Of a DNA stretch of 36,621 nucleotides, positions 1 to 3,390 are shown piece after piece; within the stretch, counting starts at the first letter, position 1, and each line of letters starts with the position of its first letter. Below the pieces are notes generated by a model, which was not told the origin of the DNA, searched no databases, and saw nothing but the letters and a program-made list of their open reading frames with translations. Both the position numbers and the translations under genes were made by a program. Origin of the DNA: Halorubrum saccharovorum DSM 1137 (GTDB lineage: Archaea > Halobacteriota > Halobacteria > Halobacteriales > Haloferacaceae); NCBI RefSeq assembly GCF_000337915.1, contig NZ_AOJE01000025.1:45648-82268 (forward strand). The letters run 5' to 3'.

Positions 1-38
1 CTCACTCATCGAAATCCCGTTGAAATCACACCCTCGAT

Positions 39-460
39 TCCCATGGGATCACCGACCCCCCACATTTTGTTTTTAGACGGGGTCGCGCTCAGAAACTCGT
101 CACCCCTCACACCGACCACCAGATCCAGTAGCTCCAGTACAAATCCATGGAATCCCATGGGATCACCAATACACACGTTCACCACCACTTCACTCCATTC
201 ACACGCCGAAATCTCGTCTGAAACACCCCTCGATTTCCATGGGATCACCGACCCCCCACATTTTGTTTTTAGACGGGGTCGCGCTCAATACTCAGTGAGA
301 TTCACGGGGAACAACTCACCCCATGAGATCCCATGGGATCACCAATACACACGTCCACAGCCACCTCACCACTGTCACGCGCCGGAAACTCGTCTGAAAC
401 ACCCCTTGATTCCCATGGGATCACCGACCCCCCACATTTTGTTTTTAGACGGGGTCGCGC
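39..460 (+). repeat. Left repeat array: five palindromes and three hairpin boxes
   Basis: Palindromes centred on CCATGG lie at 39-48, 153-162, 235-244, 329-338 and 411-420. Those at 39, 235 and 411 are each followed 4 bp later by a nearly identical 36-bp box (53-88, 249-284, 425-460). Each box reads CGACCCC, then an AT-rich middle with ATTTTGTTTTTAGA, then GGGGTCGCGC, so its ends can pair as a stem. The palindromes at 153 and 329 are instead followed by CACCAATACACACG. The two classes alternate, and the 153/235 and 329/411 pairs are both 82 bp apart. Confidence 0.9.
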
Positions 461-561
461 GATATGACTCAACCCCCCTCGCTCAACAACTCAGCGAAGT
501 CGGCGGCAGCTGTCGCAGGGCTGTCGCTGTCACGACCCTGCTGTACTACTCGCGGGCAACT

Positions 562-628
562 GTTATGCTTACTATTAATAAAAAAATTAAAAAATAGAAT
601 AGATAGTTAATATAATGGTTATACACAG
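562..628. other. AT-rich core, candidate unwinding element
   Basis: This is a run of almost pure A and T, with runs such as AAAAAAATTAAAAAATAG, lying between the left and right repeat arrays. Nothing else in the window is as AT-rich. Its central position between inverted repeats suits a duplex-unwinding element. A promoter cluster is possible, but no gene starts next to it. Confidence 0.55.
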
Positions 629-736
629 AAACCCTTAAGTAGATATGTCCCGTACATTACCGTAGAGGGTCTTACCGACAGACCTACCGCACGGAGTGGG
701 GTAGGGTCGTCCCTCGACCCCCTCCGCCTTTTCCTC

Positions 737-1162
737 GCGCCCCCCGCTAAAAACAAAATGTGGGGGTGCGAGATCCCATGGGATTTCGGGGACGTGAAAC
801 TGCTTATTTTGGGGGTAGAACGTCGAACACACGTCACAGTACGGAGTACCGTGATCCCATGGGATTCCATGGATTGAGGTGTTTCGACTATTCACCGAGA
901 GTATTTTGAGCGAGATATGAACCGTGATCCAGTGACTTTGGCCGAGATTGAGTTACATCACGAGATCCGTCTGTGAGGTGCGCGCGACATCAGTCACTGC
1001 GTCACTGATCAGGGGGTGTTCGTGTTGAGCGCGCGACCCCCGCTAAAAACAAAATGTGGGGGGTCGGTGATCCCATGGGATTACGGGGTCGTGAATCTGG
1101 TTATTCTCGGGGTAGACCCGTGTTTCTATGCCGCAAGTGGGGAGTACGGCAATCCCATGGAA
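737..1162 (-). repeat. Right repeat array: inverted palindromes and two hairpin boxes
   Basis: These are inverted copies of the left array. Hairpin boxes lie at 737-770 and 1031-1066 and read GCTAAAAACAAAATGTGGGG through their middles. Each is followed by a palindrome (774-783, 1071-1080). A second palindrome follows at 855-864 and 1153-1162, that is 81 and 82 bp further on. The 855 copy also carries the extra TTCCATGGAT arm seen at 143-152 on the left. The arms of the boxes have drifted (CGCCCCC against GGGGTGCG; CGACCCCC against GGGGGGTCG) but can still mostly pair. Confidence 0.88.
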
Positions 1163-1166
1163 TTTC

Positions 1167-1225
1167 CACTGGAGTCACTGGACCCACTGGAGCGGGGGGT
1201 ACCACTGGATCTGGTGGTTCACTGG
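1167..1225 (+). repeat. CACTGG iterons upstream of the 1301 gene
   Basis: Five CACTGG cores start at 1167, 1176, 1185, 1203 and 1220, with spacings of 9, 9, 18 and 17 bp. A GGTGGTT motif is repeated at 1213 and 1230. They end about 45 bp before the TATA box of the next gene. Short regularly spaced direct repeats like these are typical operators of ribbon-helix-helix proteins and typical plasmid iterons. The next gene encodes an N-terminal ribbon-helix-helix, so autoregulation is a reasonable inference. Confidence 0.6.
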
Positions 1226-1268
1226 ATCCGGTGGTTAATTTCACCTGAAATCCGCAACTCAACAAGGC

Positions 1269-1275
1269 ATATAAG
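1269..1275 (+). promoter_or_regulatory. TATA box of the ribbon-helix-helix protein gene
   Basis: ATATAAG lies 26-32 bp before the ATG at 1301, the spacing expected for a leaderless haloarchaeal transcript. There is no Shine-Dalgarno sequence before the ATG, which agrees with leaderless translation. Confidence 0.65.
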
Positions 1276-1300
1276 GGGCGCGATCTGACACCGAAATACG

Positions 1301-2743
1301 ATGACCTCAATCCAAACTACAGTCGATGACGACATCGCGGACGCATTTACTCAATGGGCCGAAGAGAATTACAAAAGTAAAGCCGCTGCACTCCGCGATT
1401 ACATCAAAAAAGCCCCAAAAGGCGAATCCGTTCACAGCGCCACAACAAACGAAGACCTCGAAGACCAGATCGAAGACCTCCGCGACACGATCGAATCTGG
1501 GTCGATCAACGTTCAGAATCAGACTCATCAGAATCAGGAACAGAACAGTGCTGAATCCGAAAATGAAGACGTGGATCTGATCGAGATGTACGACCCGGAT
1601 GTTGACGCAGAGGAGTTGCCTGACGACCTCACCCCGGAACACGACGATGAATCGTGCGTGCGCAAAGACATCCTCGAATCTGTAGTCAAAAAGTGGGAGG
1701 AAACCGGTGAAGTCCCCGAGCTGAATCCGACGCACATCAGCACGGATCCCCGTCCGCAAGGCGGTGACACACCCGTTGCGCTCGGCATCGGGATTATTCA
1801 GCACCGATTCGAGAACACGATCCAGCACTCCTCGATTGTGGACGTGTTAGCGTCTGATAACGGTGGATTAGGGTACACGAAGCAGTACGTCCGGGAAAAC
1901 GGGCACGCTCACGACATTGCAGGCACTATGGTGCCTGTCCCCGGCGAGGATGGCGTGTACATCGTGGATGACGACGTTAAGTCAGCCGCACTCACCCAAA
2001 CCGAACACGAAATCGAAACTGAAGTACAGGCGCTCGAAAATGCGGATGATTGGCGGTCGTTCGATGCGTCGATTCGGAAGCTGGATGACCTCCTGAAAGA
2101 CCTCCGGACGATTAAGCAGAACATGGGTGTGACGAGTCAGATCAGCGAGGACGATGTTAATGACGACATCATAGCTGCTGGCCGTGATCTCAGCGAAGAC
2201 CTGTTCTTCGACGCGCTCGCGGACGCTGAAGGCGTTGTTGAGGAGTTTGAGGAGCGGTTAGAAGAGATGCGTGACGCAGATACGTATCCGGAGTACGTGG
2301 CTGCTGACCCCGACTATAACCGTGTAATCAACGCTAAGGCCACGGTCCAAAAGCCGGGCGATCATGATGACCCATACGGTGCGTTATCGCAAGACGATCT
2401 CAGCGCCGCTGACGACGTACAAGACCGGTTTGAGGAGGTCAGAGGGCAAATCAAGAGAGTTCGGTATCACAAACAGGGCATGATTGAGGAATCCGAAAAA
2501 CGCCGCGTTGAGTACCGCGAACTGGGTGTTCAGAACCTCGTGGACATCGCGATGGAAACAGAGGATCTGAGTGTCGCTGAATCGGCAGTGAACGCTATTG
2601 ACGACCTACACGCCTGCAAACACAGCACTACACGACAGACGTATGCTGATCTAACGATTGAGGTGGATTACCAGTCGATGCGCAGTAAACTCACCCGTAA
2701 TTTCCGGCAGTTAGAGAGCTGTGATTGGGGTCTTTGGGGTTAG
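1301..2743 (+). CDS. Ribbon-helix-helix / coiled-coil protein, candidate replicon protein
   Basis: I do not recognise the family of this 480-residue acidic protein. Residues 4-38 look like a ribbon-helix-helix DNA-binding domain: a short strand (IQTTVDDD), then two helices including AEENYKSKAAALRDYIKKA. Residues 40-115 are a polar, acidic linker. Residues 155-225 could be a winged-helix-like unit (GYTKQYVREN, then a hairpin around GVYIVDD). Residues 232-275, 300-325 and 370-410 are charged helices likely to form coiled coils. There is no Walker A motif, no HUH rolling-circle motif and no primase or recombinase signature. It starts leaderless behind its TATA box and CACTGG iterons, with the palindrome array further upstream. 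Its lower GC and mixed third positions differ from the chromosomal genes to the right. By position I infer an initiator, partition or copy-control protein of an integrated plasmid. Confidence 0.8.
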   Translation: MTSIQTTVDDDIADAFTQWAEENYKSKAAALRDYIKKAPKGESVHSATTNEDLEDQIEDLRDTIESGSINVQNQTHQNQEQNSAESENEDVDLIEMYDPDVDAEELPDDLTPEHDDESCVRKDILESVVKKWEETGEVPELNPTHISTDPRPQGGDTPVALGIGIIQHRFENTIQHSSIVDVLASDNGGLGYTKQYVRENGHAHDIAGTMVPVPGEDGVYIVDDDVKSAALTQTEHEIETEVQALENADDWRSFDASIRKLDDLLKDLRTIKQNMGVTSQISEDDVNDDIIAAGRDLSEDLFFDALADAEGVVEEFEERLEEMRDADTYPEYVAADPDYNRVINAKATVQKPGDHDDPYGALSQDDLSAADDVQDRFEEVRGQIKRVRYHKQGMIEESEKRRVEYRELGVQNLVDIAMETEDLSVAESAVNAIDDLHACKHSTTRQTYADLTIEVDYQSMRSKLTRNFRQLESCDWGLWG

Positions 2744-2939: not shown

Positions 2940-3318
2940 GCGGGTCGGCCAGTGACTGCGGGTGGGGTGACGGCGTCCGTCTTTTCTGCGGTGTGCGGTG
3001 AATCGACGAGTCACTGGCCTCGGATGATCGATCCGAATGATGGCCTCGGATGAGCAATCAGAAACGCATCTCGATGGCTCTCCCGATTTACTCGACCCCA
3101 TAGATGCTCAGTTCTTCATCGAACCCGTTCCGTCTCAAAGCGTCACTCGACCCCAAATACTAACATGAATGCCGTTTTGGTTCTTCCCGAATCGACAGAC
3201 GGCGGCGACCGTCGTCACGGAGCGTGACGAAATCACCCCTCGAAATGAACCCGAAATACTACCGATCGCTACGCTGTCCCGTGGTTTGCTATGTATCCGC
3301 ACCAAGAGGGTGTGTGAC
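2940..3318. other. Gene-free end of the accessory block
   Basis: No convincing gene is visible. The stretch holds two more GTCACTGG sites (2949-2956 reversed and 3010-3017) and a 13-bp direct repeat TGGCCTCGGATGA at 3015-3027 and 3041-3053. It runs up to the 3' end of tRNA-Arg. I found no integrase here; if the element has one, it lies to the left of the window or was lost. Confidence 0.5.
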
Positions 3319-3390
3319 GGGCGCGACGGGATTTGAACCCGCGGCATCTTGGTCCGGAACCAAGTGCTCTGTCCGCTGAGCTACGCGCCC
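3319..3390 (-). tRNA. tRNA-Arg (anticodon CCG)
   Basis: Read on the minus strand this is a full 72-nt cloverleaf. The acceptor GGGCGCG pairs with CGCGCCC, the D stem is GCTC/GAGC, the anticodon stem CTTGG/CCAAG encloses the loop TTCCGGA (anticodon CCG), and the T arm is GCGGG-TTCAAAT-CCCGT. No intron and no encoded CCA. Its 3' end faces the low-GC block, which is where integrative elements that target tRNA genes would lie. A TTTAA-like box at about 3417-3421 lies 27-31 bp before the mature 5' end and may be its promoter. Confidence 0.95.

Follow-up and report, generated by a model that had tools for sequence, protein, structure and literature searches.

Plasmids of the bacterial iteron type carry repeated initiator binding sites that adjoin an AT-rich region and the initiator gene. 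Arrays of palindromic sites are likewise found with centromere binders of the SegB, ParG and ParR types, proteins with an N-terminal ribbon-helix-helix (RHH) fold. RHH proteins are usually repressors or centromere binders, and autoregulation is common among them. In haloarchaea, replication is unexplained for many mobile elements, including some plasmid-vesicle elements (apHPVs) related to pR1SE: the available part of a survey of these elements reports seven with no obvious replication protein (PMC10818511). In the same part of the survey, repeats 25 bp or longer that precede ORF6 or follow ORF25 are noted as potential origins, and two apHPVs are recorded in Halorubrum saccharovorum DSM 1137 (PMC10818511).

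Here we describe a locus of this strain in which an array of mirrored repeats precedes the gene for an RHH protein. It lies at the left end of the window, the whole stretch of 36,621 nucleotides of contig C25 (NZ_AOJE01000025.1) that was analysed. Inverted repeats around an AT-rich element and an adjacent orc1/cdc6 gene both serve as criteria for an origin of the Orc1/Cdc6-ORB type; the locus has the former and lacks the latter.

A mirrored array of palindromes and boxes

Positions 1-1300 of the window contain modules disposed with mirror symmetry about an AT-rich core, three on the left and two, inverted, on the right (Table 1). Read from the outside towards the core, a module consists of an outer palindrome, an inner palindrome and a T-rich box, with a spacing of 82 bp from the first to the second and of 26 bp from the second to the third. 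Each extra, box-less palindrome has a box-bearing partner at 81-83 bp, and the box sits about 26 bp inward of its palindrome, the order being mirrored on the right side. Within the upstream region, AT content peaks in the core, whose best 60 bp (about 563-623) have 13% GC. The box, CCCCACATTTTGTTTTTAG, occurs in five exact copies in the window against 0.00 expected from 100 shuffles; the palindrome, ATCCCATGGGAT with at most one mismatch, occurs in eight copies against 0.02 expected. Between the array and the gene lie two 17-bp direct repeats, possibly the operator of the adjacent gene, and a TATA-like element whose position would fit a leaderless transcript.

The modules and the enclosed AT-rich stretch had been picked out by an earlier sequence-only reading, and both were confirmed, with all boxes exact. 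That reading also described a hairpin with a CGACCCC/GGGGTCG stem and a 14-nt loop. The stem is indeed present, exact in the left copies only, but the loop measures 19 nt, which is why a literal search for CGACCCC-N14-GGGGTCG gives no match. When up to two mismatches are allowed, the box is found six times in the 3.42-Mb genome, always within C25:45603-46708 (reversed control, 0), and has no copy beyond the array. Repeats scattered away from any homologue of the gene at position 1301, which the reading would have counted against an origin, are thus not what this genome has. Searches with the DNA of window 1-1300 for similarity to plasmids, and with the box and the 480-aa protein in viral contigs and phage records, were without yield.

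The window begins immediately after a single N at C25:45647, which is flanked by a perfect 101-bp duplication (the same N and duplication are at L010:1546-1748). Probably two contig ends were joined here with their overlap left unmerged. A further forward copy of the box lies left of the window, at C25:45603; since the duplication flanks the N, this fourth left module may be a duplicate created in scaffolding. Tandem 27-bp repeats, CCTACTCTACCTATTACGACTGTTCTG, which contain an N, occur at L010:777-980 (C25:44777-44980), upstream of the array by about 0.7 kb.

Table 1. Features of the locus and its surroundings (window coordinates unless marked C25)
Feature	Position	Strand	Remarks
Left module 1	38..76	+	inner palindrome TTCCCATGGGAT 38-49, box CCCCACATTTTGTTTTTAG 58-76
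Left module 2, outer palindrome	152..163		82 bp to next palindrome
Left module 2	234..272	+	palindrome with mismatches, box 254-272
Left module 3, outer palindrome	328..339		82 bp to next palindrome
Left module 3	410..448	+	palindrome, box 430-448
AT-rich core	562..628		13% GC in best 60 bp; candidate unwinding element
Right module 1, inverted	747..784	-	box 747-765, palindrome 773-784
Right module 1, outer palindrome	854..865		81 bp off
Right module 2, inverted	1043..1081	-	box 1043-1061, palindrome 1070-1081
Right module 2, outer palindrome	1152..1163		82 bp off
Box CCCCACATTTTGTTTTTAG, all copies	58-76, 254-272, 430-448; 747-765, 1043-1061	+ (first three); - (last two)	all exact
Direct repeats, 17 bp x2, CACTGGATCYGGTGGTT	1203..1236	+	weaker third at 1185
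TATA-like GCATATAA	1267..1274	+	about 30 bp 5' of ATG
480-aa protein gene	1301..2743	+	RHH N-terminus, YDPD/NPTHIS region, predicted helical C-terminal part; candidate initiator
attR-like 17-bp repeat of tRNA-Arg 3' end	3317..3333		second copy C25:9730-9746
tRNA-Arg	3318-3390	-	

The adjacent gene and its protein family

The 480-aa protein encoded next to the array has no Pfam or NCBIfam match above cut-off. Its relatives have an RHH N-terminus in common, together with a conserved region marked by YDPD…NPDHV; CopG-type regulators match the family profile weakly. A single-sequence AlphaFold model of the protein was too poor for use (pLDDT 49). The nearest relative, about 33% identical, is HLAC_RS16940 on pHLAC01 of Halorubrum lacusprofundi. 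Homologues are rare: no small free plasmid carrying one was found, and pR1SE has no family member as judged by tblastn.

The profile finds matches in 23 of 392 genomes of the order, a figure that includes RHH-only matches, which are regarded as another protein. The RHH-only matches G336, G209 and G356, which look like a different small protein made of RHH plus a C-terminal domain, were left out of the family count. G403 and G292 match the profile but were not counted either, the contig ends leaving too little sequence upstream of them. A second family is formed by small haloarchaeal proteins that join an RHH N-terminus to a conserved C-terminal domain (L062, L063, L064, L065 and L066).

Arrays upstream of related genes

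For each family member, the best spaced inverted repeat in the 1.6 kb upstream was scored. A score of at least 20, a threshold picked after the first scores had been seen, was reached by 9 of 13 members and by 7 of 205 controls, which were tiled windows and not solely upstream regions (Fisher p = 3e-9). Removal of the discovery locus leaves 8 of 12 members (p = 3e-8), and among the members that were added once the test was in place the proportion is 4/7 (p = 1e-4). No array was present upstream of four of the 13. In all but one of the nine array-bearing members, the arms enclose the AT-richest 60 bp. At the core, local GC skew switches sign, from negative to positive, in 5/5 loci tested (1.5 kb); the gene lying to the right is a confounder of this change.

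In the pHLAC01 array, TTGTACAA palindromes form pairs at a distance of exactly 76 bp and are accompanied by a similar box, CCCCACCTTTGTTTGTTGACGG; one module stands to the left and two to the right of the AT-rich core. G326 belongs to another haloarchaeal family; its array has two plus two boxes with a TTTTGTTTT core, inverted about a core, and palindromes of the TTGGGCCAA type; its box-palindrome distances are wider. Thus, the letters of palindrome and box differ from locus to locus while the layout is kept, as expected of a DNA-binding protein and a site array that co-evolve. The hairpin, which the sequence-only reading had treated as the defining element, is kept in neither the pHLAC01 nor the G326 homologue and was rejected as a conserved feature.

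Integrases or tRNA att sites are close to several family members. In G359 a tRNA on the opposite strand again comes after the gene, and an integrase lies upstream; a second att copy was not found within 30 kb. A gene for an Mrr-type nuclease is present near the array-bearing member in each of two loci (L154:857-1414 and L155:3775-4287).

An integrated element of the pR1SE type

The 17-bp repeat at the 3' end of the tRNA-Arg gene has its second copy 338 bp from a tyrosine integrase gene, and GC content between the two copies is below that of the chromosome. The repeats, the integrase and the lower GC therefore place the locus at the end, next to the tRNA, of a roughly 39-kb integrated element. 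A tblastn of pR1SE proteins revealed homologues of ORF6 to ORF25, in the same order, on C25:27380-41561. The apHPV core genes (ORF6-9, 17, 21 and 23-25) are there in the conserved order by which such elements are recognised; a separate match to ORF9 was absent from that interval in the same search. By its gene content, the locus sits in an integrated element of the plasmid-vesicle type (apHPV, pR1SE-like), a setting that the sequence-only reading had missed.

The element also encodes an additional TATA-binding protein, an Eco57I-type modification enzyme and a resolvase. The gene for the TATA-binding protein (C25:11209-11811; L008:5209-5811) adjoins a restriction-modification gene, and an exact oriC1-ORB-like site, TTCCACGAGAAACAGAGGGG, lies upstream of the Eco57I-type gene at C25:15619-15638. 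ORF25 has two homologues in this genome, on C25 and C51, and contig C51 carries a second pR1SE-like element (L067) which has an Orc1 gene.

No Orc1 gene was found on C25, all TIGR02928 hits in the genome being on other contigs. Neither MCM nor a recognised Rep was detected among the larger ORFs of the element that were scanned; small ORFs were only partly covered, so a Rep could possibly have been missed there.

Origin, centromere or operator

An origin is favoured by the AT-rich core between inverted boxes, the outward G-strings, which the host's oriC1 also has, the setting in an integrated element and the absence of any other recognised replication gene. We consider it reasonably probable, from these sequence features, that the locus is the origin and initiator gene of an integrated apHPV-type element that encodes no Orc1 of its own. 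The binding and melting steps, all of which we infer, would be the following. Dimers of the 480-aa protein would bind the palindrome pairs through the RHH domain, and the T-rich/G-string boxes beside the core would be bound by the central domain of the protein or by a host factor. The mirror-symmetric nucleoprotein complex so formed would melt the core, where host MCM and replisome would load in both directions. A role in autoregulation and copy control is possible for the 17-bp repeats before the gene. That the 480-aa protein should itself melt the core and load the helicase is unsupported: it lacks both a Walker A motif and any recognised replication domain.

A partition site is the main rival. 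The RHH protein would then bind the palindrome pairs and segregate the element with or without a host ATPase. This stays the main rival because RHH proteins often bind centromeres and the 480-aa protein has no ATPase motif of an initiator; the RHH N-terminus (the family profile matches the RHH of NikR with E = 0.0011), the long helical C-terminal part and the palindrome arrays at fixed spacing would all suit a centromere. Such a site, however, needs no strongly AT-rich core between inverted boxes, yet the core is conserved in 8/9 arrays, and no ParA-like Pfam match was obtained among the scanned ORFs of the element (small ORFs partly covered) or near the G326 homologue. We regard a partition site as unlikely, and an origin as the likelier role of the gene-array module.

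Alternatively, the boxes might be ORBs of an unusual kind, recognised by an Orc1 paralogue of the host, with the adjacent protein only a regulator. The host genome has many Orc1 genes, and the A-rich stretch and G-string, the outward polarity and the inverted layout match haloarchaeal origins; at the host's oriC1 the G-strings also point outward and the AT minimum also falls between ORBs. However, on a matrix that covers the oriC1 family only, a host ORB scores 32.3 and the box -3.0, while the best score in the array is 6.2 and shuffled sequences reach 13.3. The box was thus rejected as an oriC1 ORB. Since it occurs nowhere else in the genome, no copy lies beside any host orc1 gene, and C25 itself has no Orc1. 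A divergent Orc1/Cdc6-type origin seems quite improbable.

Slightly more doubtful still is an operator or enhancer that controls transcription of the adjacent gene and its neighbours and has no part in replication: RHH proteins commonly autoregulate, the palindromes are upstream of the gene and the 17-bp repeats are near the promoter, but the array exceeds 1.1 kb, its mirror symmetry has the AT-rich core and not the promoter as axis, and its core-centred layout recurs in divergent loci. An initiator of the HUH/Rep-Arvir type was rejected, the HUH motif not being conserved across the family and DUF7845 giving no match, as was a vesicle-packaging signal: the genome that contains pHLAC01 has the module and no match to the vesicle ATPase, and the module is therefore separable from vesicle packaging.

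Returning to the origin, the sequence-only reading had held that the box is not an ORB and the adjacent gene not Orc1, and both statements were borne out, the former against the oriC1 matrix. Its view of the repeats as origin-like in layout, and possibly as part of an undescribed haloarchaeal replicon family, gains support from the comparison with eight other loci, as far as sequence can tell. Whether such a family exists in the full form that we envisage is, in our judgement, evenly balanced. It would be an Orc1-independent archaeal replicon family with an RHH initiator bearing a new YDPD/NPDHV domain and with palindrome pairs and T-rich boxes in mirror image on the two sides of an AT-rich core; the palindromes would diverge together with the protein, and integrative and plasmid-vesicle elements would have spread it across several haloarchaeal families.

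Comparison with known systems

The available part of the apHPV survey describes no such gene-array module (PMC10818511). Being compact and of clear geometry, the module offers a directly testable candidate and a possible new vector origin; it is also a case of DNA sites that diverge under a fixed layout.

With RHH centromere binders of the SegB, ParG and ParR types the locus shares the N-terminal fold and the arrays of palindromic sites; it differs in that no ParA/SegA partner was found and that an AT-rich core lies within the array. Bacterial iteron plasmids of the RepA/Pi type similarly have repeated sites beside an AT-rich region and an initiator gene, whereas the sites described here form mirror-inverted pairs, not tandem iterons, and the protein has no RepA/Rep_3 domain. 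Rep-Arvir/HUH rolling-circle initiators resemble the system as initiators of archaeal mobile elements with a nearby cis element (PMC13107129); beyond the missing motif and domain mentioned above, they are set apart from it by the lack of a conserved hairpin. The element has the vesicle gene set of pR1SE and other apHPV plasmids, but pR1SE, according to the available part of the survey, has predicted RepH and Cdc6/Orc1 proteins (PMC10818511). Haloarchaeal Orc1/Cdc6-ORB origins (oriC1 and others; PMC3528665) are alike in their inverted repeats, outward G-strings, AT-rich core and adjoining gene for a DNA-binding protein. In contrast to these origins, the locus has no orc1/cdc6 on its contig and a box unlike the oriC1 ORB; it has, instead, an RHH protein and additional palindrome pairs at fixed spacing.
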